Below are positions 3,859 through 36,629 of a stretch of 36,629 bases of DNA, piece after piece. The translations under genes and the position numbers were made by a program. Position 1 is the stretch's first letter, and the number at the start of each line of letters is the position of its first letter. The stretch is taken from the IMG/VR virus record IMGVR_UViG_3300025154_000261, positions 1 to 36,629 of that record. One strand, written 5' to 3'. This DNA is from a virus. The notes beneath the pieces were generated by a model. That model worked only from the letters and a program-made list of their open reading frames with translations, did not search any database and was not told the DNA's origin.

Positions 3859-4355
3859 TGAACATCAAGATTGACAATTACACATTCGACAAGACAGCAA
3901 AGACAATCACATTCTCGGATTACACATCGATATCTTTGCCCCGCGTCGTCTTGATAACCAACGTCGAAGGCAACGCGATCATCTACAACTTCGCGGGCTC
4001 TGGCGTTGGCGGATCGGTATCGGGGAACGTGCTTACGCTCGACTATGACACGTCGTCGATGGCGAACACGGACAAGCTACAAATTATTTACGACGACAAG
4101 GACGCCTCGCTTCTTGTTCAGCTTCTCGAATCGATAAAGCTTTTGTTCCGCGTCACGGCAAACCCGCCGTGGGTAGATAAAAGCGCCAACCAGATGCGCG
4201 CGCAGGTGACGGGATCATTGACGACTGCCGGGACAGTATCGACCGTGACGACCGTTACCGGAATAACCAATCTCGGTGGGTATCCCGCACAGCAAGGGAT
4301 CATCGATCAAAACCGTGCGGCATGGGCCGTGCTGACAAGAGGGAGGCTGGCATGA
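3858..4355 (+). CDS. Putative fibre-associated structural protein
   Basis: A 165-residue protein whose N-terminal 90 residues are strongly beta (DNYTFDKTAKTITFSDY at 6-22, LPRVVLITNVEGNAIIYNF at 28-46), a short helix LLVQLLESIKLLF near 83-95, and a Thr/Val-rich repeat tail (VTGSLTTAGTVSTVTTVTG). No family is recognised with certainty. The start overlaps the fibre gene stop (TGATG) and its own stop overlaps the next ATG, so it belongs to the fibre module and is probably a virion component or assembly helper for it. Confidence 0.55.
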   Translation: MNIKIDNYTFDKTAKTITFSDYTSISLPRVVLITNVEGNAIIYNFAGSGVGGSVSGNVLTLDYDTSSMANTDKLQIIYDDKDASLLVQLLESIKLLFRVTANPPWVDKSANQMRAQVTGSLTTAGTVSTVTTVTGITNLGGYPAQQGIIDQNRAAWAVLTRGRLA

Positions 4356-5965
4356 GCAACAACTTCAAGAAAATCATCGACCGCAATATGTGGGTGCAAT
4401 CTTCACCAGCTCCCAACGCGCACGCGGCGGGTGCTTCGCTGGCTTGCGACTTGCGGAATGATATGTCCCGCAATCCATTTATTTACGATGTTGCAAGCGC
4501 GACGGTGCTGAACCGTTACAACGCGATAACAAAGGGCTGGAACTTTGTCGTGTCTCCCGCGCTGGCTGGCACATTCGGAGCCGGGGCGGCTTCGATCTTC
4601 GCCCCGTCGTGCGGACTGATGGGCAATATCGGGGCCGCATGTACGACGACAAAAATAATCACGACAACCACGATCACGGCGGTAGGCGTCAACATGCTCG
4701 CCAATCGTGGCGGCTCTGGTGATTACGGATTCAAGGTCCGCATCAAAGGAAACTCCGCTGGAAGCTCGGGGAAGATTGAAGAGCGGTGGATTGTCGGCAA
4801 CACAGGTGGAACCACTCCGACGCTTTGGCTTGATACCGCGCTGACCTTCACCCCCGCAAGCGGCGACACCTACGAGATAATTGCCGGGCGCTTGTTTATG
4901 CTCGGCGCTGGAGTTACCGCAGCGGGAACATGGCGATCATTCGAGTTGGCCGCCAATCTCCTTGCGTCTCTGTCAACGACGAACTTACCCGCAACCGTGG
5001 CGACGGACTCGTCCCTATGTGCGCTCGACGAGCAATACGTCCCATACGATCACAAGCCGGGAGAAGGCTTTGTCATCGGGGCGGGAACATACGATGCAAG
5101 CAATCTAAAATATTGTTTGATAGCAACCGCAAGCGCGGCGGGAACGTTGACCGGACAAGCAGCGGCCGGGGATTATGCCGTAGTTGCGAACGAGTACCGA
5201 AACTTCCAGATCCGCATTGTCGAAGATACCGCGATCCCGACAGCCGTAGGTCAACGCAGGCAGATAGCCAGTCACACCGCCGGGGCGTCGCCAGTCTACA
5301 CGCTCGGCGCGGCATGGGCGGTCACTCCGAGCGCAACGGCGAAGTTTGTCATCGAATATCCAAACCTTATCTTGGGCCGATCTTCCGCTACGACCTCGGT
5401 TTATACGTACAACTATTCCGGAGCGTCGCTGACCAACGGGACCGGAACGATCGCCGCAGATGCTTGGAGCGTGACGTACTTTGGCGTAGCCGGAGCCGCG
5501 AACGCCGCCGGCGGAATGTGGTTCCCCTCTTTCGGCATGGAGCCGGACGTCGGTAAAAATGCGCGGCATTCATTCTGTTTCTTTTTCAGGGGAGCCTCGG
5601 CCACGGTTGACCTGCTGGACATAGCGGGCGGCACCGCTGGCGCGTGGACATCGGGAGTCGTGATAGACGGCGCGGTATCGGTAACGACGGGATCGTGCGG
5701 AAAGATAGCGCCGGCCGATCAGGAAGGGAAATTCGGCTACATAAACGGATACACCGCGTCGTTGGTCAATCAGCTATTCCGGTTCGACGTCAAGAACCGC
5801 GTGCTCACCCCGTTCACGCCGACCGACTGGATACAGGCAGGTACGGCGGCGGCAGGTGAGCGCGTCGCGGTAATCTGCGCAGTGGACGGGACGGACAAAT
5901 ACTCCGTGATCTGTTTGCTCTCACACTTGAGTACCATTTTCCACGAATGCGTCGTGTTGGAATAA
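4352..5965 (+). CDS. Putative virion structural protein of the fibre module
   Basis: The ATG at 4352 is chosen because GGGAGG lies 5-6 nt upstream and the codon overlaps the previous stop (ATGA); an upstream in-frame ATG at 4322 has no good ribosome site. The product is 537 residues, rich in Ala, Gly and Thr, with beta-strand pattern throughout and no membrane segment. The N-terminus (NNFKKIIDRNMWVQSSPAPN) resembles unnamed structural proteins found in phage genomes; no enzymatic motif is visible. Its size and place suggest a major part of a head or tail fibre assembly. It ends the operon before a strong promoter at 5970. Confidence 0.55.
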   Translation: MSNNFKKIIDRNMWVQSSPAPNAHAAGASLACDLRNDMSRNPFIYDVASATVLNRYNAITKGWNFVVSPALAGTFGAGAASIFAPSCGLMGNIGAACTTTKIITTTTITAVGVNMLANRGGSGDYGFKVRIKGNSAGSSGKIEERWIVGNTGGTTPTLWLDTALTFTPASGDTYEIIAGRLFMLGAGVTAAGTWRSFELAANLLASLSTTNLPATVATDSSLCALDEQYVPYDHKPGEGFVIGAGTYDASNLKYCLIATASAAGTLTGQAAAGDYAVVANEYRNFQIRIVEDTAIPTAVGQRRQIASHTAGASPVYTLGAAWAVTPSATAKFVIEYPNLILGRSSATTSVYTYNYSGASLTNGTGTIAADAWSVTYFGVAGAANAAGGMWFPSFGMEPDVGKNARHSFCFFFRGASATVDLLDIAGGTAGAWTSGVVIDGAVSVTTGSCGKIAPADQEGKFGYINGYTASLVNQLFRFDVKNRVLTPFTPTDWIQAGTAAAGERVAVICAVDGTDKYSVICLLSHLSTIFHECVVLE

Positions 5966-6844: not shown

Positions 6845-8041
6845 ATGGCACAGATGACCAAGGAAGAACTGGACGCGCTCATAGACAGCCGAGTCCAGGA
6901 AGGAATCAAGGCGAAATCCGCCGAGATTGAAACCACGCAGAAGAACAACCTCCGCGCCGAAATGCAGGAGGCGTACGAGGCCGCGCACCAGGAGACCGAG
7001 CGCAAGGGCTACAAAGAGGAAGCCCCGATAATCAAAGTCGCCAAGCTCGTCAACCTCTACGGCCAGAGCTTCGGCGACCACGAGCGGATGAAAGCCCTCG
7101 CCGAAAAGATGTACGGCGATGACAAGGAGATCAAAGGCTACGTCGCCAAGGCCCTCGAAGCTGGCGTACCGTCTGCCGGTGGATTCGGTATCCCGCAGGT
7201 ACTTTCCGCCCGCGTGATCGAAGCGCTTTACGCTCAGTCGCTCCTTGAAAAGATGAGCGTGGCGAAACTGCCAATGCCCAACGGCAACCTCCGCATGGCC
7301 CGCATGGACACCAGCTCGACAGTCGGATGGGTAGGCGAACTTCCAGCCGCCGCGCCGACTCAGCCCGTATTCGGCGACGTGAACCTCGCGGCCAAGAAAC
7401 TCTTCGCCATAAGCGAGATTTCAAACAGCCTTATACGGTACAACTCCATTGGAATCGAAGGCTGGCTTGCGCGTGACCTACAGAAGAAGTTCCGCCTTGC
7501 GCTGGACTATGCCGCGTTCTACGGATCCGGCACCAGCTACACCCCGGCGGGCCTTGCCAATCTCGGCATCCAGACTTCCGGCAGCTCGTCCACCGCGATG
7601 ACCCAGCTTATTCCCGACGAGATGATCGCGCTCCTGAAAGCCGCGAACGTCTCGATGACCAACGTCCATTGGGCCATGTCGCCCCAGATGGAAGCGTGGA
7701 TAAAGAATCTCAAGACCACAACCGGCGCGTGGATATTCCGGCAAGAGATGATCGAGCAGGGCAAATTGTGCGGCTACCCGTACCACGTGTCCACCCAGAT
7801 CAGTTATACCGATACCACCACGGACTACGGCGATATCTTCATCGGGGATTTCGACGAGTTCCTTTGGGGAGCCGGGCTTGACATGGAACTGCGCATGTCC
7901 CAGGACGCCGCTTTCGTTTCCGGCGGCACGACCTATTCCAGCTTCCAGCGTGACAGCGCGCTGGTTCGCGTGGTAGGCGAGCACGACTTCAATGTCATGC
8001 ACCCCGTGTCATTCGTCAAGGGCATTTATTCCGTCGCGTAA
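6845..8041 (+). CDS. Major capsid protein, HK97 fold
   Basis: A 398-residue protein with the HK97-family layout: a highly charged helical N-terminal delta domain (about residues 1-100, cut off by the protease), then the start of the mature protein around AGVPSAGGFGIPQ (about residue 108) and the typical sequence of the fold (AISEISNSLIRYNS, LALDYAAFYGSG, IFIGDFDEFLWGAGLDMELR). It forms the icosahedral shell. AAGGAG lies 7 nt upstream of the ATG. It directly follows the protease, and a GC-rich hairpin follows its stop. Confidence 0.93.
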   Translation: MAQMTKEELDALIDSRVQEGIKAKSAEIETTQKNNLRAEMQEAYEAAHQETERKGYKEEAPIIKVAKLVNLYGQSFGDHERMKALAEKMYGDDKEIKGYVAKALEAGVPSAGGFGIPQVLSARVIEALYAQSLLEKMSVAKLPMPNGNLRMARMDTSSTVGWVGELPAAAPTQPVFGDVNLAAKKLFAISEISNSLIRYNSIGIEGWLARDLQKKFRLALDYAAFYGSGTSYTPAGLANLGIQTSGSSSTAMTQLIPDEMIALLKAANVSMTNVHWAMSPQMEAWIKNLKTTTGAWIFRQEMIEQGKLCGYPYHVSTQISYTDTTTDYGDIFIGDFDEFLWGAGLDMELRMSQDAAFVSGGTTYSSFQRDSALVRVVGEHDFNVMHPVSFVKGIYSVA

Positions 8042-11915: not shown

Positions 11916-13838
11916 ATGGCCACGATTAGCGAACTGGTTGTAAAGATTATCGCCGATACCGCCGGGCTTGATTCGGGGATAAACAAGGCGACAACCTCAA
12001 TCAAAGGCGTCGGGGAAACGTCGGACAAAGCCGGGGATAAAGTAGGCGGCCTGACAAACCAATTTGCGGCCATAAAAAATACCCTTGTTGCCGCTGGCGT
12101 CATCACTGCCGTTGCCGCCCTTGGCAAGGCTATCTATGATTCGATTCAGACTTACGGAACTGGCGAGCTTGCGCTCAAGCGGCTAAATGCCGTCGCCACG
12201 ATGAACGGATTGTCAGACGGAGAAGAGCGCGTATCGGCGCTTGCCAACGAACTGCAAAACCTTATCGGCGTTGACGGAGATCTCGTCGTGCAGCTTGGCG
12301 CTGAATTGCTTGCCCAAGGAAAGAGCGTAGACCAGACCGAAAAACTGATCAGAGCCGCACAAGATCTTTCATCAGTTACCGGCTCAGACCTGTCAACAGC
12401 CGTGCGCCAGCTCACCACTACTTACTCAGGCATGGCCGGCCAGCTCGGGAAAACAACGCCGGAACTGAAAGACCTGACCGAAGAGCAATTAAAAAGCGGC
12501 GCGGCGATTGACATCATAGCCGAAAAATACAAGGGCATGACAGCGCAGATTGCCGACGGCGTAATCCCGACAACCAACAGGCTGAAAGAAGCCAATAGCG
12601 ATCTCAAGGAAACATTCGGGAAGGCATTCACTCCGCTATATATCGAGCTTGCCAACGGGCTGGCGGCCGCCATGCGTGCCATACTTGCCCCGCTTGACTA
12701 CATGGCCACGCATTCATTCGACCGGATGTTTCAGGAGATTGCGGAGTCTCTATTCAATTTCAAAGGCGAGGCCACCCTCGCCGAAGAAGCGCAACAAGCC
12801 CTAAAAGACGCAACCATCGAAAGCAACCGCGCCGCGATCAGTTATCAAACCGGTGTCAAGAACCTGAAAAGAGAACTTGACACTCTTACCACTTCGACCG
12901 ACAAACTCACCGACGCCGAGCTTGAAAACGCGCGGTCATATTTATTTGCTCAGATGAAAAAATCATCCAGCATGGATGCTCTCACTCAGGCGCAAAAAAA
13001 GCTTGACGTGTTCGATGCCGAAATAAAAGCGCGGGAAAAAGATAGACGCGATAAGGCGCTTACAGACCAAAAAGCCCGTGACGCCGAAGCGCTGAAAGAC
13101 GCTCAGAAAAACGCCGCCGATATTGCCAAGGCACAGCAGGATAAAGAAAAAGAAACCGTCAACTACATGATCGCCGCCGAAGATAAAATATCGCAGGCCA
13201 AAGCCGACGCGGTAGGTGATGCAATCATTCTCTCGGCGAAAGAAAAAGAGCAGCGCATAGCCGACGCTGATGAGATGTCCAGAAAAATGCAGGCGGCTTT
13301 TCAGACCGCCATACTTGCTACCCGTGATTCATTCATCGCGCTTGGGGAAGCCCTTGTCACAGGCGAGGACGCATGGACGGCGTTTTCAAAAGTGGCGATT
13401 CAGTCAATTGCCGGAATTGTCAGGGCGCTCGGCGATGAACTCGCGGCAAAGGCCGCCGTTGCTACGGTCGAGGCATTCGCGGCGCTTGCCGGAATCGTTA
13501 CCGCTCCGCTTGCTCCTGGATTATTCGCAAAAGCCGGGATACTGTCGGCAGGAGCTGGCGCGGCATGGATCGCATCGGGAGCATTAAGCGGCTACGCGAA
13601 TTCATTTGCCCGTGGTACAGATTTCGCCCCTGGTGGAATATCGCAAGTAAACGAGGAAGGCCCGGAGATGATAAACCTCCCGCGCGGTTCCAGCGTAACT
13701 CCCGCGACCCGTACCCCGGCGGGCGGAACAAGCGGGAACACCTTCAACATCTATTCCCCCGTAGCCGTAACCCCTTCCGTTGCGGCGCAAGAATACACTA
13801 GGATGGTTCGCAATCTGGCTTTCGAGGGAGTCCTATGA
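11916..13838 (+). CDS. Tape measure protein
   Basis: A 640-residue protein, long and mainly helical, following the chaperones. The N-terminus (ELVVKIIADTAGLDSGINKA) is the standard tape measure opening; hydrophobic segments near residues 50-65 and 530-560 (AKAGILSAGAGAAWIASGAL) alternate with Ala/Lys/Asp coiled coil (about 280-450). The C-terminus has the common QVNEEGPEMINLPRGSSVTP motif. It sets tail length; with about 0.15 nm per residue it predicts a tail near 95 nm (inference). It lacks any visible peptidoglycan hydrolase domain. Confidence 0.9.
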   Translation: MATISELVVKIIADTAGLDSGINKATTSIKGVGETSDKAGDKVGGLTNQFAAIKNTLVAAGVITAVAALGKAIYDSIQTYGTGELALKRLNAVATMNGLSDGEERVSALANELQNLIGVDGDLVVQLGAELLAQGKSVDQTEKLIRAAQDLSSVTGSDLSTAVRQLTTTYSGMAGQLGKTTPELKDLTEEQLKSGAAIDIIAEKYKGMTAQIADGVIPTTNRLKEANSDLKETFGKAFTPLYIELANGLAAAMRAILAPLDYMATHSFDRMFQEIAESLFNFKGEATLAEEAQQALKDATIESNRAAISYQTGVKNLKRELDTLTTSTDKLTDAELENARSYLFAQMKKSSSMDALTQAQKKLDVFDAEIKAREKDRRDKALTDQKARDAEALKDAQKNAADIAKAQQDKEKETVNYMIAAEDKISQAKADAVGDAIILSAKEKEQRIADADEMSRKMQAAFQTAILATRDSFIALGEALVTGEDAWTAFSKVAIQSIAGIVRALGDELAAKAAVATVEAFAALAGIVTAPLAPGLFAKAGILSAGAGAAWIASGALSGYANSFARGTDFAPGGISQVNEEGPEMINLPRGSSVTPATRTPAGGTSGNTFNIYSPVAVTPSVAAQEYTRMVRNLAFEGVL

Positions 13839-15457
13839 GCCGCAAACTTGTCTACCTGAACGGTCAGAATGAAAGCCTGACCTTTGAAACCGCGCCGTAC
13901 CTCATCGTAAAGATTGAAGGGCTCGGAATACCAAACGTTGACCGCAAGGAACAGAAAGCGCCATATCAGGACGGTACTACTTATATTGATTCGCTCTTGC
14001 AGAATCGTGACATCGTAGTTGAACTGGCAATTACAAAGCCGAACGACTTTACAGACATCGCCTTGTATCGCCGGGAATTGTCACAGCGCCTCACCCCGAA
14101 ATACGGACTTGGCGATTTGAACTACACCGACGAGGACGGCAACGAATACACCATCCGCGCCGTAGTATCCTCAATGGTATTCCCGAACAAAGATTACCGC
14201 GACCCCTACATGCGCGCGATGGTTACGTTCACGGCTTGCGATCCGTATTGGCGGAGCGTTACGGATACGACGATTAGTTTGCCGACGCCAGTGACGGGAA
14301 GCGAAGAAATAGCCAATGCGGCGTATTCTAATACGCCAAGAATGATACGTTTATCTAATGGGAACTTATACGCTGTATACATCAGAGCAGGAGACGGCTT
14401 CGCTGTATCAAGAACATTCACTACTTCTTGGGGCGCAGAGACTGAGATTAGTGATCAACGAGCATGGACGCCAAACATTATTCAGCTCGCGAATGGGGAC
14501 TTGTTAATCACGTATTGCAGAAACTCCGACAATTATTTAGTCTCAAGAACATTCACGACAGCGTGGAGCGCCGAGACCGTTATAAACGCGACGGCTACGA
14601 GCGGTATAGCGAGCATGCTAGAACTCGCGGACGGAAACGTAATAATCGCTTATCGCGACGCGTCTCTCGGATATCTCGTATCAAGAACATTCACTACTTC
14701 TTGGGGAGCAGAAGTAACAATCAATTCAGTTTCAACTTATGAGTCGTCAATGATTCAACGAACTAATGGCAACTTGGTAATAATCTACAGGCGTTCGGCG
14801 GATTCGTATCTAGGCGTTAGGATATATGAAAATAACGCATGGAGCTCAGAGGTGATAGCGAACGGAGAAGCTTCAAACGGCCCTAGTTTGATAGAAAGGT
14901 CCGACGGGACGCTGTTTGTAGCCTATCAACAATATCCTTCTCTAGGCTATACGCACTCCATGGTATACACCACTGAATGGTCTTCCCCGAGCGTTATAAA
15001 CGAAAGCAATACGCAATATCTTTCTGTAATAGAGCTTCCGTCAGGAAGTTTAATAATCGCATATCAGCGATCAGGCGATTCATACTTAGTGTATAAAACA
15101 AGAAGCATAACCCCCGTCCTTGCTAACAACACCGGCGACGTACCCGCGCCTATCCTTGTCACATTCCAAGGCCCGAGCACAAACCCGCGCATCATAAACC
15201 AAGACACGCTGGAATATATCCGACTGAATACCACGCTTGCGGCCTCCGATAGCTTCGAGGTCGATACGAGCTTTGGAAACAAGACGGTAATTCTTACGCA
15301 GGGCGGAATCGTCAAGAACGGCATCGCGTACCTCGATATCGGCTCGACATTCTTCCAGCTTGAACGCGGAAGCAATACGGTTTATTATGAGGATGACGCG
15401 GTACTATCAACCGCAACCGCGAGCCTTGAGTTTACCGAAAGGTATTCGGGATTATGA
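13835..15457 (+). CDS. Distal tail protein (Dit-like) with inserted beta-propeller
   Basis: A 540-residue protein. Residues 1-140 and about 425-540 match the two halves of a siphovirus Dit (phage tail family: LVYLNGQNESLTFETAPYLI at the start; FTACDPYWRS near 130; a galectin-like C-terminal beta domain). Between them, residues about 160-425 hold at least six repeats of roughly 45 residues with the pattern IIQLANGDLLITY...SRTFTTSWGAE, as in BNR/sialidase-type beta-propellers. So-called evolved Dits carry sugar-binding inserts; a propeller here probably binds host surface glycan. No catalytic sialidase residues are evident. DNA of the insert is visibly richer in A and T than its flanks. Start overlaps the tape measure stop. 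Confidence 0.8.
   Translation: MSRKLVYLNGQNESLTFETAPYLIVKIEGLGIPNVDRKEQKAPYQDGTTYIDSLLQNRDIVVELAITKPNDFTDIALYRRELSQRLTPKYGLGDLNYTDEDGNEYTIRAVVSSMVFPNKDYRDPYMRAMVTFTACDPYWRSVTDTTISLPTPVTGSEEIANAAYSNTPRMIRLSNGNLYAVYIRAGDGFAVSRTFTTSWGAETEISDQRAWTPNIIQLANGDLLITYCRNSDNYLVSRTFTTAWSAETVINATATSGIASMLELADGNVIIAYRDASLGYLVSRTFTTSWGAEVTINSVSTYESSMIQRTNGNLVIIYRRSADSYLGVRIYENNAWSSEVIANGEASNGPSLIERSDGTLFVAYQQYPSLGYTHSMVYTTEWSSPSVINESNTQYLSVIELPSGSLIIAYQRSGDSYLVYKTRSITPVLANNTGDVPAPILVTFQGPSTNPRIINQDTLEYIRLNTTLAASDSFEVDTSFGNKTVILTQGGIVKNGIAYLDIGSTFFQLERGSNTVYYEDDAVLSTATASLEFTERYSGL
14405..14706 (+). repeat. Internal DNA repeats of propeller blades
   Basis: A 29-base sequence beginning GTATCAAGAACATTCACTAC occurs exactly at 14405-14433 and 14678-14706, 273 bases apart, that is two blades of about 45 codons; a diverged copy lies near 14540-14570. 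Such DNA-level identity implies recent duplication or gene conversion of blades. Confidence 0.75.
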
Positions 15458-21362: not shown

Positions 21363-23930
21363 CTAGAATTGAAATAACGTAGGAGCCGCCTTCTCCGTAT
21401 CAATATCTTTCAGGTAGTACAAACCATCATGGAACGACTCTGAATTAAGCTCAGTACCCACCCCACGGCGCTCCATCTTCACAGCCATGTACGGAACGGT
21501 AAACAAACCGGCGAAAGGATCAAATACAAGATCATCCTTGTTGGAGTATCGCCCGATGATCCGCTCGACGATGTCGAACTGTAGCGGACATATGTGCATG
21601 GCCAGCTCTTTACGCGCTTGATCGCTGTTCAGCGTCCGCATCCTGTTCACGTCGTCCCATACCCATTCGCTCGTTGAACCTGGAGCCACTACCATAAACG
21701 ACGCCGGGAGCTTGCCATCATCGTCGAGGTCGTCGGCAAGTCCGACATGATCATGGTAATCGTAAGGATTCTCACGGGAAAACGTGCGATACTTGGCTTG
21801 CAGCTCTGGCACTTCGGTATTGCGCAGCTCTTCCAGCGCAAGCAGCCGCTCTCCAGATGACTTCCAGTAAGCATGGGCGTCAATCTGCCAATGAGCGCGG
21901 GTATATTCTTCTTTGCTCTTTACAACAGGATCGTCAGCGTATGCCCGCGATAGATCGGTAGGGAGCTTACGGAATAGCAAAACATATTCCGGGCATCCTA
22001 CGCCCATCTTAGTGCCATCCTTGCACTGTTCCGTCCAGCCAAGCCGGTACGTCTGGTTATTTTCACGCACTACGTCCGTTACTACCGTAATGCGGCCCAT
22101 GTATTGGAAACCATGCTTTATAAAGTGGAATACGGTCATATCAGAAAACGGATCGACCGTTGGCATTCCCGTGCCGGTAGCGTTGCCGAACAGGATCCTG
22201 TCTTTGACATGGATAGCGGCGACCCGGCCCGGCTTCAAAACGCGAAGGAGGTGAGGCGTCAAGAAATCCATCTGTTCAAAAAACTTTACATTGTCCTCAT
22301 TGTGCCCGAAATCATTATACGTCGGCGTGTACTCGTAATGGTTGGAAAACGGAATAGACGTATGAATCAGGTCCACCGTGTTATCTTCCCATGCCGGAAG
22401 CTCAAGGCAATTATCGTTCAGTATGGCGCGGAAGTATTGCCCTTTAACCTCTTCACGGTTGAATGAAATGGTACGAGACAGCTTGTCAAGGACCGACGTG
22501 GACGCAAGGCCATTCTCGCGGATAATGCGCGTCATTTGACCGACAAGATAATTATGCTGTTCCCACTTTTTCTTGAGCGTGTCAAGGATGGCCTGCTCGC
22601 TCTCGGCGTAGATGATATGCACCTCGACCGAATGCCCTTGCATGAATCGGTAAATGCGGTGGATGGCTTGTATAAAATCATTGAACTTGTACCCGATGCC
22701 AACGAATATGCACTTATGACAGAAGTATTGCATATTCCCGCCCTGGGCGGACATGTCCGGCTTTGTGGCCAGATACTTTATCTCTCCGCGCTTGAAGGCC
22801 CGCGTTATCTCGGTGTTCTTCTCGTAATCCTGGGAGCCGTATACCTCGGCGGCTTCCCGCAAAGCCGACTTGATAGCGTGGCGCTCGGCTTCAAGATCGT
22901 GCCATAAAATGAAATGATCGTCGGGAGACTCTTCGATTATCTCCATCATCTTAGCCACGCGCGGGCCGATGCTGTCGCGTTTCTCTTTTGAAGCATCGCG
23001 AAGCCCGATGGCCGCATCCCTGAACAGCTTGGCCTGTCCGTCATCTTCGTAGCCTGCCGTCGAATGATCTACGTTTACCATGTGGTAAATGACGTCCAGA
23101 GGCGGGAGATCGTAGCCGGTATCGTCGTATCCAAGGTCGGACGGTTTAGTTATAAAAAGCGCCCATGTCGATACCCAAAACCAGAATTCTTTTTCCTTAT
23201 GCGGGTATAGCGTCAGGTTATTTGCTTGCGTTGAATCGCGGTGGAAGAAGCGCGTCAAAGCCTGCCCGGTGTCCATGATGCCAAGGAAGCCCGCGTAGTG
23301 GATAAGCTCTTTGTACTTATTCGGCGACGGGGTAGCTGTGGCTACGAAGCGATATCGAACCGTTGAAAACTTGGACAGAAACTCTTGATATGTCTTTGAA
23401 CCATACGAGCGAAGGACAGACGCCTCGTCAAGGCTCGTCGCTATAAAGTACGCCGGATCTATGTCGCCATCGCGCACGCGCTCATAATTGGTTATAAGGA
23501 TCCTTGCATTCGACGCTTTCGCTTCAGCCTGAGTACGGATGTATTCAAGGTTTATGCCGTAGGTAGCGCGAAGCCATTCTATGTCTATACCTTTTTCTTT
23601 GCAACCAGCTTCGAACGATGCGCCCTGGAACATCGAATCGTTCTTGAACTCATCCACCACGTTAAGCGGCGCAACGATGAGCGCCTTGCCCGCCACCTCG
23701 CCCATGATAAGGCGAAGCACGTCCAACTGCGTCAATGTCTTTCCAAGTCCAAATGATGAAAAGATGGCGCGTTGGCCGCCTTTTGCAGCCCATAGAACGG
23801 TATCACGCTCATGCGGTTTCAAGATCGGATTGACCTGCTCGGCCTTGAACTCAATGCCGGTATCCGGCGCTATCTTGATTTTAGACTTCAAAAAGTCTAT
23901 GTACGGCGCGGCTCTTTCCTCTGTTGTCAT
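21363..23930 (-). CDS. SNF2-like helicase fused to DNA methyltransferase
   Basis: An 855-residue protein. The N-terminal 480 residues are a superfamily 2 helicase: Walker A SSFGLGKTL (about 58-66), ALIVAPLNVVDEF, DExx box SLDEAS (about 166-171), motif III ATATPSPN (about 197-204) and motif VI QAIHRIYRFMQG. The C-terminal part is an N6-adenine/N4-cytosine methyltransferase of the beta order: motif IV as TSIPFS (about 525) in place of (D/N/S)PPY, and motif I FDPFAG (803-808), then GVGTELN. It may track along DNA and modify it, for example against host restriction; a role in replication is also possible. No nuclease domain is visible. It has its own promoter. Confidence 0.78.
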   Translation of the reverse strand: MTTEERAAPYIDFLKSKIKIAPDTGIEFKAEQVNPILKPHERDTVLWAAKGGQRAIFSSFGLGKTLTQLDVLRLIMGEVAGKALIVAPLNVVDEFKNDSMFQGASFEAGCKEKGIDIEWLRATYGINLEYIRTQAEAKASNARILITNYERVRDGDIDPAYFIATSLDEASVLRSYGSKTYQEFLSKFSTVRYRFVATATPSPNKYKELIHYAGFLGIMDTGQALTRFFHRDSTQANNLTLYPHKEKEFWFWVSTWALFITKPSDLGYDDTGYDLPPLDVIYHMVNVDHSTAGYEDDGQAKLFRDAAIGLRDASKEKRDSIGPRVAKMMEIIEESPDDHFILWHDLEAERHAIKSALREAAEVYGSQDYEKNTEITRAFKRGEIKYLATKPDMSAQGGNMQYFCHKCIFVGIGYKFNDFIQAIHRIYRFMQGHSVEVHIIYAESEQAILDTLKKKWEQHNYLVGQMTRIIRENGLASTSVLDKLSRTISFNREEVKGQYFRAILNDNCLELPAWEDNTVDLIHTSIPFSNHYEYTPTYNDFGHNEDNVKFFEQMDFLTPHLLRVLKPGRVAAIHVKDRILFGNATGTGMPTVDPFSDMTVFHFIKHGFQYMGRITVVTDVVRENNQTYRLGWTEQCKDGTKMGVGCPEYVLLFRKLPTDLSRAYADDPVVKSKEEYTRAHWQIDAHAYWKSSGERLLALEELRNTEVPELQAKYRTFSRENPYDYHDHVGLADDLDDDGKLPASFMVVAPGSTSEWVWDDVNRMRTLNSDQARKELAMHICPLQFDIVERIIGRYSNKDDLVFDPFAGLFTVPYMAVKMERRGVGTELNSESFHDGLYYLKDIDTEKAAPTLFQF

Positions 23931-33171: not shown

Positions 33172-33663
33172 ATGGCTAAGGCAGAAGGCAAGCATCCTGG
33201 CGGAAGGCCAACAAAGTATAAATCTGAATACTGCCTGACAGCCGAGTACATGGCCCGCGCCGGAATGACCGATGCGCAGATTGCCGGAAGGCTTGGCATA
33301 TCCGAAGCCACGATAACTAATTGGAAAAAAGACTATCCAGAGTTTTTAGCGTCCCTAAAGGTTGGCAAAGAAGGCCCCGACGATCTTGTCGAAAAATCAT
33401 TGTTTGAGCGGGCTACTGGCTACACATTTGATTCAGAAAAAATAGTTGTAGTTTCCATGGGGCAGGGCTTAGGTTCAGAGACAGAGCGCGTCCCGATAAA
33501 AGAGCATTGCCCGCCAGATGTCACCGCACAGATATTTTGGCTAAAGAATCGCAGGCCGGACAGGTGGAGAGACAAGCAAGAAATCCAAATAGACGGCGAA
33601 ATATCAACCCCAGTGAAATTCGTCTTTGTTGACCCGCCCGATGCAGATACCCCGGAAGCTTGA
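33172..33663 (+). CDS. terS: Terminase small subunit
   Basis: ATG 33172 has GAGG 7 nt upstream and is preferred to ATG 33166. The 163-residue product opens with the typical GKHPGGRPTKYKSEY, then a helix-turn-helix (MTDAQIAGRLGISEATITNW, about 34-53), the oligomerisation region (DLVEKSLFERATGYTF) and the end part KNRRPDRWRDKQ. It recognises phage DNA for packaging. Its 3' end overlaps the large subunit gene by 23 nt. Confidence 0.88.
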   Translation: MAKAEGKHPGGRPTKYKSEYCLTAEYMARAGMTDAQIAGRLGISEATITNWKKDYPEFLASLKVGKEGPDDLVEKSLFERATGYTFDSEKIVVVSMGQGLGSETERVPIKEHCPPDVTAQIFWLKNRRPDRWRDKQEIQIDGEISTPVKFVFVDPPDADTPEA

Positions 33664-34888
33664 ACCGTTCTTTACCAGCCCGTTGACGCACAACATATTC
33701 CAGGGTGGACGCGGCGGAGGCAAGACACGCACCATCGCCAGCCTCATCGCCGAAATAATGAACGAAGCGCCGGTCAACATAATCTGCGGACGTGAGATCC
33801 AGAAGAGCCTGAAAGAATCCAGCTTCCTCGTACTCAAGCAAGAAATCTACCGGCTGGGCTACGGGAACCGCTTCAGCATCATCGAGAGCCAGGGCGTCAT
33901 TGAATCGCACACCGGCGGCCGCGCGGTATTCATCGGCTTGCAGCAACACACGGTAGACTCAATCAAAAGCTATGAGAATTTCCATTGGGCGTGGATTGAA
34001 GAAGCCCAGAGCGTGTCAAAGCAATCCCTCGAAACGCTCATACCAACCTTGCGAACAGACGGATGGTTCAAGGCATGCGGCCACCGCTTCCCACTGCGCA
34101 TGTTTTTATACACCCTCAACCCGTACACATGGGACGATCCGATCAACCTTGTTTTGCCGGAATCCCGCAATGATACCCGGCGGATAACGATAAACCATAA
34201 CGACAATCCGTGGTTTCCAGCGGCACTTGAGCTTGAGCGGATCGAAGCCAAGGCCACCATGCAGCCCGAGGAATACTTGCGGATATGGGAGGGCATACCC
34301 TTCGACAACGCCGAAAACGCCGTCATAACCCGGCGGCAGGCGGCGGCGGCCATGGCCCGGAAAGTATCGACCGAGGGCGGGATTGTAGTTGGCGCGGACA
34401 TTGCGCGATTCGGGACAGACGCGACGGTTTTCATAAAGCGCCAGGGTATGCAAGTGATCGCCGTCAAGAAGCTGACGAAAAAAGACACGCAAACCGTAGC
34501 CAGCGAGCTTGCCGCCTTTGCCGAAGGAGGCCGGATCATCATCGACGATACCGGCGTGGGCGGAGGCGTGACGGACCGGCTCCGCGTTTTGGGCGCGAAC
34601 GTGGTCCCGGTAAACTTTGGAAGCCGCGCACGGGAAAAGAAAAAGTACCCTGATATCATCTCCGAGATGTGGTTCAACCTCGCAGGCATGATCGAACAAG
34701 TAGGTTTGCCGGACGATAACGATTTGCTCAACGAGCTTTCGAGCCGACATTACCGCTACACTGCCGACGAGCGCCGCGCCGTGGAATCTAAAGAGGACTA
34801 CAAAAAACGCACTGGCAGGCATAGTCCGGACAGCGCAGACGCATTGATTCTTTGCTATTTTAACAATCCCGGCGTGACAATGGTATGA
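33641..34888 (+). CDS. terL: Terminase large subunit
   Basis: A 415-residue protein starting at ATG 33641 (earlier TTG codons are less likely). The ATPase half has Walker A FQGGRGGGKTRTI (near residue 20), Walker B WAWIEEAQS, and the coupling region TLNPYTWDDP. The nuclease half has the RNase H-like VVGADIARFGTDATVF (near 254) and IIIDDTGVGGGVTDRLR (near 298), ending in HSPDSADALILCYF. It resembles PBSX/XtmB-type terminases, which often go with headful packaging, in agreement with a circularly permuted genome. Confidence 0.92.
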   Translation: MQIPRKLEPFFTSPLTHNIFQGGRGGGKTRTIASLIAEIMNEAPVNIICGREIQKSLKESSFLVLKQEIYRLGYGNRFSIIESQGVIESHTGGRAVFIGLQQHTVDSIKSYENFHWAWIEEAQSVSKQSLETLIPTLRTDGWFKACGHRFPLRMFLYTLNPYTWDDPINLVLPESRNDTRRITINHNDNPWFPAALELERIEAKATMQPEEYLRIWEGIPFDNAENAVITRRQAAAAMARKVSTEGGIVVGADIARFGTDATVFIKRQGMQVIAVKKLTKKDTQTVASELAAFAEGGRIIIDDTGVGGGVTDRLRVLGANVVPVNFGSRAREKKKYPDIISEMWFNLAGMIEQVGLPDDNDLLNELSSRHYRYTADERRAVESKEDYKKRTGRHSPDSADALILCYFNNPGVTMV

Positions 34889-34962: not shown

Positions 34963-35166
34963 ATGATTTCAGGATATTGTGTCAAATGCGGCTTCCCCGC
35001 AGTCCACCGTTGCCAGAAATGCGACGCAAGGCTATGCAATAATTGCGTAGGCTCCCACGAGTGCGCCGCGCAAAAGCCAGAGCTTGAGCTATCCAACACG
35101 CAAAGCCAGAGCGAGACCGTCAAGGCCGCTATCCGCAAGCCGTACGCGCCGAGAGTAAAAAAATGA
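34963..35166 (+). CDS. B-box/HIT-type zinc-finger protein
   Basis: GGAGG lies 6 nt upstream of ATG 34963. The 67-residue product has CVKCGFPAVHRCQKCDARLC then NNCVGSHEC: Cys 6, 9, 17, 20, 25, 28, His 32 and Cys 34, the cross-brace spacing of B-box/HIT-like zinc fingers, which bind two zinc ions. The C-terminal half is polar and basic. Such fingers usually make protein contacts. The role in a phage is unknown; an accessory gene with its own promoter between terminase and portal suggests a moron. Confidence 0.65.
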   Translation: MISGYCVKCGFPAVHRCQKCDARLCNNCVGSHECAAQKPELELSNTQSQSETVKAAIRKPYAPRVKK

Positions 35167-35324
35167 GTGAATTATTTGCAATAGTTTTAATTTTATTGGT
35201 ACTCTCTGCTTTTACAGGGGGGACGTCAGCTAGTTGCGGAGGTTGTGGTAGCAACCCGCCACCACGAACACCAAAGCCGACCCACTTGCGACCGCCACCC
35301 ACGAAACCACAGATAAATAAATAG
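35163..35324 (+). CDS. Small exported proline-rich peptide, possible lipoprotein
   Basis: A 53-residue frame whose ATG overlaps the zinc-finger stop. It starts with a signal-like segment (LFAIVLILLVLSAFTGG), then SASCGGCGS and a proline-rich tail (NPPPRTPKPTHLRPPPTKPQ). Cys25 could be lipidated, though Ser at -3 is not the usual Leu. Short, proline-rich and exported is also the description of Rz1 o-spanins, but the lysis cassette is far away; an envelope-acting moron is as likely. Confidence 0.55.
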   Translation: MSELFAIVLILLVLSAFTGGTSASCGGCGSNPPPRTPKPTHLRPPPTKPQINK

Positions 35325-35328
35325 CACG

Positions 35329-35357
35329 TTGACAATATCCCCGGCGTGCAATATGGT
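35329..35357 (+). promoter_or_regulatory. Ferritin promoter
   Basis: TTGACA (35329-35334) and TATGGT (35352-35357), spacer 17, in the gap after the proline-rich peptide gene. It would give ferritin, and through it the portal gene, a separate transcript. Confidence 0.68.
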
Positions 35358-35389: not shown

Positions 35390-35400
35390 AGGAGCCACGT

Positions 35401-35943
35401 ATGATACTTTCCGCCAATGTTTTAACCCTGCTATGCCGACAATACAGCCACGAGATAGCCAATAGCCTGTTTTACACCTCGCTCCAGTCATGGGCCGACA
35501 TGCGCGGGCTTGACGGCACCGCCGGATTCTTTGGCAGGCAGGCCGACGACGAGCACAGGCACGCCGATATGGTACTTGCGTACATCCACGCCCGGAATGA
35601 GCAACTTGCCAACATGCCGCCGGTAGCGCCGATGGCCGCCGGGGATGACTTTATGAGCCAGTTTGACACGGCGCGGGAGATCGAGAGCCGGACAACCGCC
35701 GCGATATCAGCCATACATGCACAGGCCCTTGCAGAGTCCGACATGATGACATGCGCGTGGCTTGCACAGCCCGGCGGACTGATCCTCGAACAGCTTGAGG
35801 AAGAGAACACCATCCAGAGCATCATTGACCGGATCAATGCCCGGCGCGGGAACGTCCCACTTGACCCCGCCGACGTATCGCAGGCAGAAATGCCCGGCGA
35901 AGTCATCCACGATATCGATTGCTGGCTTAAAGGGCTTGCATGA
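35401..35943 (+). CDS. Ferritin (non-haem, FtnA-like)
   Basis: A 180-residue protein with the four-helix ferritin pattern. Compared with E. coli FtnA from memory: LCRQYSHEIANSLFYTSLQS (11-30) matches helix A with Glu18 and Tyr25; GFFGRQADDEHRHADMVLAY (42-61) matches helix B with Glu51 and His54; TAREIESRTTAAI (90-102) gives Glu93 or Glu95; and LEQLEEENTIQSIIDRI (129-145) matches helix D with Gln131 and Glu134. So all ferroxidase ligands are present, as are residues of the third iron site (Asp50, Glu130, Glu133). A short Pro-Gly-Gly insertion precedes helix D, and a 30-residue C-terminal extension follows. Ferritins form 24-subunit shells that oxidise and store iron. AGGAG and its own promoter precede it; its stop overlaps the portal ATG, so both are coupled. 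Confidence 0.85.
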   Translation: MILSANVLTLLCRQYSHEIANSLFYTSLQSWADMRGLDGTAGFFGRQADDEHRHADMVLAYIHARNEQLANMPPVAPMAAGDDFMSQFDTAREIESRTTAAISAIHAQALAESDMMTCAWLAQPGGLILEQLEEENTIQSIIDRINARRGNVPLDPADVSQAEMPGEVIHDIDCWLKGLA

Positions 35944-36629
35944 GCATCTTTGCCAGGCTCGGGGGCAAGCAGCGCCAGACGCCGGATGATCGCGGCCAAG
36001 GCTTGCAGCGCACATGGAGCCAAGCCCCGCGCTCGGAGACAACCCGCCTACCTGCTCTTTATCATCAGTCGCCCCGACTCGACCCTGTGGAGCTGATAGC
36101 CTCGACCATAGCAGGCGCGCCGCTGGAATTATTCGACCGAGCCAAGTACCGCAAAGACCCGGACAACGCCGAGCATATCGAGAACCACCCGTTCTACGAG
36201 CTTATGGACAGCCCATCCGTAATGTTCCCCGAGCTGGATGGGTACGCGCTCAAGTACCTGACAGTCGTTTTGACCGAGTTGCTCGGGGAGTGCTTCTGGG
36301 TTAAAATCCGCGCCGGAACGAAAGTTGCGGAGCTTCTCCCGTTCCCGCCTGCGTGGTGCATCATGACGCCGACGCAATCAAACCCGCGCTTCATGTTCCA
36401 GCCGTTCGGGACCACCGCCGCGCGCACGATCAACGTGGAACCCGCCGACGTGGTATGGTTCAAACAGCCGGACTTGACTGATCCCTACGGGCGCGGGCGC
36501 GGACGTACGGAAGCCGTCGGAGGCGAACTTGACGCCGACGAAATGGCCGAGAAGTGGCAGCGGAACTATTATTACAATGACGCCACCCCGCCATTCTGGG
36601 CGAACATACCAGGAGCACAAACCGCCGAG
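35940..36629 (+). CDS. Portal protein, N-terminal part (continues at window start)
   Basis: ATG 35940 overlaps the ferritin stop (ATGA). The 230 codons in the window show the portal family pattern: PVELIASTIAGAPLELFDRA (about 51-70), ENHPFYELMDSPS, ELDGYALKYLTVVLTELLGE with CFWVKIRAG, ELLPFPPAWCIMTPT and VEPADVVWFKQPDLTDPYGR. The frame goes on through the terminal repeat into 5-1756, so the split is only where the circle was cut. It forms the ring through which DNA enters and leaves the head. Confidence 0.92.
   Translation, partial: MSIFARLGGKQRQTPDDRGQGLQRTWSQAPRSETTRLPALYHQSPRLDPVELIASTIAGAPLELFDRAKYRKDPDNAEHIENHPFYELMDSPSVMFPELDGYALKYLTVVLTELLGECFWVKIRAGTKVAELLPFPPAWCIMTPTQSNPRFMFQPFGTTAARTINVEPADVVWFKQPDLTDPYGRGRGRTEAVGGELDADEMAEKWQRNYYYNDATPPFWANIPGAQTAE
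36504..36629. repeat. Terminal direct repeat, right copy
   Basis: Identical to 5-130. See the left copy; together they show that the molecule closes on itself. Confidence 0.9.

Follow-up and report, generated by a model that had tools for sequence, protein, structure and literature searches.

A phage ferritin of the FtnA type, inherited with the portal–capsid block

The complete phage genome in IMG/VR record IMGVR_UViG_3300025154_000261 carries, directly ahead of its portal gene, a ferritin of the FtnA type with an intact active centre, which is under selection at the level of its protein and is inherited with the capsid genes. The window, by which we mean the whole stretch of DNA that was analysed, is the full 36,629 nucleotides of that record, and the ferritin gene lies on its plus strand at 35401–35943. 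The usual view has phages leaving the handling of iron to their hosts, and the roles proposed for iron in phage particles have so far come without a defined phage-encoded iron protein. What is new is a phage-specific lineage of ferritin with an insert in helix D, no near host homologue found and a repeated association with the portal. Control of iron by the phage late in infection is probable, and the gene offers a concrete starting point for asking whether iron is under phage control during assembly and whether mineralised iron is carried in virions.

The ferritin and its active centre

That the open reading frame encodes a ferritin is nearly certain. The gene begins with ATG, behind a ribosome-binding site (AGGAG, plus strand, approximately 35390–35394) read from the sequence, and specifies 180 amino acids. 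In Pfam the product matches the Ferritin family, PF00210, at E=1.2e-16 (61.4 bits against a cut-off of 24.5), and the only other family over its own cut-off is the related Rubrerythrin. NCBIfam returns non-heme ferritin at 1.8e-10, which is under the cut-off of that equivalog. Among solved structures the sequence finds about 100 chains, nearly all of them named ferritins (best E=2.7e-10), the nearest being the non-heme ferritins of T. maritima, H. pylori and others. The original prediction of an FtnA-type ferritin, which had proposed a profile search as a check, is borne out by that search, by the structure matches and by the iron ligands; the same evidence rules out a chance four-helix protein. 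Nor is this a bacterioferritin. The residue following E51 is histidine, versus the haem ligand Met52, the best matches in the PDB by both sequence and fold are non-heme ferritins, and the EQxEEE motif of FtnA is present.

An AlphaFold model of the single chain, built from 22 aligned sequences, has a mean pLDDT of 90.4 and a TM-score of 0.84 to the ferritins of H. pylori and V. cholerae over 178–179 alignment columns, E helix included. Its helices (residues 5–34, 38–64, 84–111, 115–122 with 127–149, and 166–179) make up the four-helix bundle that had been read as helices A to D, together with a C-terminal E helix. The phage protein shares with bacterial FtnA (E. coli, H. pylori, V. cholerae, T. 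maritima) the Pfam family, the whole-chain fold with its E helix, the di-iron ligands and the EQxEEE motif in helix D, at about 22–26% identity. It differs in being encoded by a phage, in its coupling to a portal gene, in a third iron site that is not fully conserved, in three to four extra residues in helix D and in a longer loop between helices D and E. The extra residues (QPGG or QADG) are common to the phage copies and absent from the cellular sequences aligned, and the longer loop is likewise a feature of the phage copies of this family. In the window ferritin QPGG occupies residues 123–126 and interrupts helix D in the model, near the classical position of the three-fold channel, so that assembly of the cage could be altered.

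All the iron ligands had been predicted to be present. At seven positions (E18, Y25, E51, H54, E95, Q131 and E134) every full-length FtnA-type relative aligned, phage or cellular, has the same residue, and a set of nine aligned cellular and phage ferritins agrees throughout (9/9) at Q14, E18, Y25, E51, H54, E95, E130, Q131, E133, E134 and E135. Included among these invariant residues are the ferroxidase ligands of FtnA, E17, E50, H53, E94, Q127 and E130 in E. coli numbering. Of the predicted ligands, Glu18, Glu51, His54, Gln131 and Glu134 are invariant; of the pair given as Glu93/95, E95 is conserved and Glu93 is not. An alignment of three diverged phage copies has 65 invariant columns out of 172, and these take in each of the seven ferroxidase residues (hypergeometric P = 9e-4). 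The protein is likely to be catalytically competent. The third iron site of E. coli FtnA comprises Glu49, Glu126, Glu129 and Glu130. In the phage copies E130, E133 and E134 are kept; at the position of Glu49 the window has Asp, and both the L044–L048 group of related contigs and contig L096 have Gly.

A gene that stays with the portal block

The last 126 bases of the record repeat near its start (positions 5–130 equal 36504–36629 exactly, behind a few stray bases), so the record closes into a circle of 36,499 bp. The phage is siphovirus-like, with SPP1_Dit and Gp37-like tail proteins, and its genes run in the order TerS (phrog_309), TerL, a zinc-binding-like protein, a 53-residue reading frame, ferritin, portal–MuF, protease, capsid, connectors and tail. 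The large terminase subunit (Terminase_3; 33626–34888, plus strand) matches PF04466 at E=2.4e-24. The small Cys/His zinc-binding-like protein (34963–35166, plus strand) has a match to Pfam zf-B_box at E=8e-4, under the cut-off, and its gene is overlapped through ATGA by the 53-residue frame (35163–35324, plus strand). Read from the sequence, this frame encodes a hydrophobic N terminus, a CGGCG stretch and a proline-rich tail; it has no Pfam match and is found only in the window, being absent from the relatives. The portal–MuF fusion begins at 35940 and runs on the plus strand to 36629 (PF04860, E=3.3e-14; phrog_2662), then reads through the circular join to its remainder at 2–1756, also plus (PF04860, PF04233; phrog_2662 at E=9.7e-70), for a total of 771 amino acids. 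These flanks, TerL and portal, confirm the predicted location between terminase and portal. The circle closes through the portal gene and the gene order recurs in independent contigs, which disposes of host contamination or a chimeric contig.

Scanning viral contigs with the window ferritin as a single sequence gave no matches; its relatives were reached through a portal search and profile scans. The portal search led to contigs L043–L048 (portal 73%). A complete ferritin, 46–47% identical to that of the window, is present in L044, L045, L047 and L048, and L046 has the end of one. A profile scan added L096, whose ferritin is 54% identical. In these two other phage lineages the ferritin is 44–54% identical and the portal 63–73%; the HK97-type major capsid protein (6845–8041, plus strand; 73–75% identical in L048 and L096) and the connectors are conserved too. 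The order zinc gene, ferritin, portal is common to the window, the L044–L050 group and L096, and zinc-gene homologues, found in L044, L045, L047, L048 and L096, precede the ferritin in all three lineages. The proposed search for homologues in the terL–portal interval was thus rewarded, at the same interval in related phages.

The terminase tells a different story. In the L044–L048 group and L096 it is of another type, 478 amino acids long, and tblastn of the available stretches of the relatives found no relative of the window TerL, TerS or replication genes; tblastn likewise found no TerL homologue in L109 or L110. Phages that share the window TerL and have other portals (G015, G016, G017) show no ferritin-family gene in their records. 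A ferritin tied to the terminase is therefore out. Since replacement of the terminase leaves it with the portal, and the TerL sharers with other portals lack it, we group the ferritin with the virion block, not the packaging motor, and conclude that it travels with that block. The original prediction placed it in the packaging module; the position holds, between terminase and portal, but the gene belongs with the portal–capsid–tail block. Between 34888 and 34963 the window has a module boundary with respect to L048 and L096, TerL differing in type upstream and everything from the zinc gene to the tail genes being shared, which points to a terminase replacement. Contig L002 has a TerL 92% and a zinc gene 80% identical to those of the window, and ends before the ferritin position.

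Ferritin and portal are also joined in translation. In every copy checked, across three lineages, ferritin stop and portal start share an ATGA overlap, and ahead of the portal start in the window and L048 there is only a weak Shine-Dalgarno in place of a good ribosome-binding site. A promoter of its own had been claimed for the ferritin, and a promoter-like site (TTGACA-17-TATGGT; 35329–35357, plus strand), by consensus match only, does lie directly upstream. The TTGACA site recurs at the equivalent place in L044, L045, L047 and L048, again as a consensus match. L048 has a strong terminator (-24.4 kcal/mol, z=-5.5) between the upstream gene and the ferritin, and in L096 the ferritin starts 8 nt past the zinc gene. 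In GC content and GC3 the ferritin matches the other late genes. Among L044–L048 its dN is 0.008–0.020 and its dS 0.16–0.26, and the resulting dN/dS of 0.03–0.12 shows that the protein is under selection.

At least three further phages have a ferritin-family gene adjoining the portal or one gene from it. In L099 (portal phrog_9232) the ferritin lies 14 nt downstream of the portal, with the capsid a few genes later, and in L098 (portal phrog_2739) one small gene separates the two. In L093 a PF00210 protein of another branch (4269–4682, E=7e-21) starts in the stop codon of a distant phrog_2662 portal–MuF, once more through ATGA, and the contig ends just past it. Two others, L051 and L097, have ferritin near replication genes, and the isolated phages Roos and ctLpZ231, which have a related portal, have no annotated ferritin there. 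The set suggests a link between ferritin and portal across phages, in a sample that is small and was gathered partly through the portal itself.

Origin and precedents

The ferritins of the window family form one supported clade (95/92), whose place relative to other phage and cellular ferritins is not fixed by the tree (89/66). A short-pattern scan of 84,980 species genomes, which could miss some matches, found no close cellular donor homologue; the best cellular matches were FtnA proteins about 30% identical, not what would be seen in an auxiliary metabolic gene recently acquired from a host. Prophages and hosts were sought with a portal profile in 395 genomes from the phylum of G009 and 296 from that of G010; none was found in this search, which was run without a positive control.

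The claim that no phage ferritin of this kind has been characterised survives in part: in the literature searched we found no experimentally characterised phage FtnA, but virus-encoded ferritins have been reported. Giant viruses encode ferritin (PMC7136201), and BFVD already has entries named phage ferritin. A sediment virus of Bathyarchaeia from Vrana Lake encodes a bacterioferritin under purifying selection, discussed by its authors as a host-derived auxiliary metabolic gene (PMC10904782). Like ours, its gene codes for a ferroxidase of the ferritin superfamily, is carried by a virus and evolves under purifying selection; unlike ours, it encodes a bacterioferritin, and in the portion of that paper used here, a link to the virion block is not among the features reported. 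Dps occurs in phages (PMC8008677, PMC6669764), and with manganese catalase (Gratiaviridae and Lactobacillus phages) shares the ferritin-like fold and a proposed defence against iron and peroxide. Phage Dps belongs to another branch of the superfamily, and in the Lactobacillus case its neighbourhood is that of DNA metabolism genes and not of the portal. A proposed 'ferrojan horse' ferritin, gp217 of a Vi01-like phage, has been detected in virions by mass spectrometry (PMC10892097). It has 117 amino acids and matches DUF5856, with no match to the Pfam ferritin family, and so sets no precedent for a phage ferritin of the FtnA type. Five INPHARED records labelled as phage (MT839617, MT836766, MT838998, MT838721 and OR845001) were rejected as precedents because their ferritins neighbour bacterial chromosomal genes; they are likely contamination.

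What the ferritin may do

As a whole explanation we lean, modestly, towards a working ferroxidase cage that is made with the virion proteins and sequesters iron late in infection. The subunit, a four-helix bundle with an E helix, would probably assemble into a 24-mer that oxidises Fe2+ at its di-iron centre and stores the ferric mineral. As the first gene of the virion-morphogenesis operon, translated in step with the portal, the ferritin would be synthesised once infection is past its midpoint. The level of free ferrous iron in the cell would then fall, with less Fenton damage to the DNA awaiting packaging and to assembling virions; the protein may also withhold or buffer iron. Relief of iron or oxidative stress in the host, loading of iron for virions and capture of host iron, the roles originally proposed, may each apply. 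The account is favoured by the family, structure and fold matches, by ferroxidase residues that are invariant in a family only 44–54% identical, with the chance probability given above, by the selection on the protein, by the shared gene order, by the ATGA overlap with the portal and the promoter-like site, and by a base composition like that of the other late genes. Against it stand the QPGG break in helix D, with its possible effect on cage assembly, the Gly at the Glu49 position in two of the three lineages, and the fact that FtnA-type ferritins elsewhere can serve iron supply, not stress defence.

Late sequestration is the simplest reading; more striking would be a role in the virion. The ferritin might work in or on the particle, as a head component, a cargo or a partner in portal or prohead assembly, and carry or supply iron to it, to be compared with encapsulins, HK97-fold shells that load ferritin-like cargo; we consider this unlikely. 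Movement with the portal–capsid block and not the terminase, ATGA coupling in three lineages and the portal neighbours in L099, L098 and L093 all speak for it. Encapsulin cargo belongs to another ferritin-like family and bears a targeting peptide; in the window the candidate pair would be a true phage capsid and an FtnA-type protein, and by eye we recognised no such peptide in it. Adjacency to the portal may also reflect only strong late expression, and Roos and ctLpZ231, together with the replication-side ferritins of L051 and L097, weaken the association. That several unrelated phages independently placed a working ferritin by the portal, because iron-loaded ferritin aids head assembly or rides in the virion, seems to us more doubtful still; if true, it would make this the first virion-associated ferritin.

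It is also improbable that the gene is an ordinary accessory gene (a moron) taken from a bacterium into a permissive slot between terminase and portal, where it benefits the host cell. Accessory genes of phages that have a promoter to themselves often sit between modules, as the promoter-like site here would allow, and ferritin-family genes are near universal in bacteria (14 of 14 control genomes). But morons typically bring their own terminator and are patchy in presence, whereas this gene overlaps the portal, keeps its place in three diverged lineages, belongs to a single phage clade and has no close cellular relative in the scan. Least probable by far is that the protein no longer acts as a ferritin and persists in a structural role, as a four-helix protein, or as the portal's translational leader: the ATGA coupling, the weak Shine-Dalgarno before the portal, the broken helix D and the incompletely kept third iron site would fit, but a leader would not need the ferroxidase ligands, all of which are kept under strong amino-acid constraint.

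Elsewhere in the genome, the minus strand at 21363–23930 encodes an 855-residue protein that combines an SNF2-type helicase region with an N6/N4 DNA methylase domain. The middle of the distal tail (Dit-like) protein at 13835–15457 weakly matches a BNR repeat and may be an insertion that binds carbohydrate.
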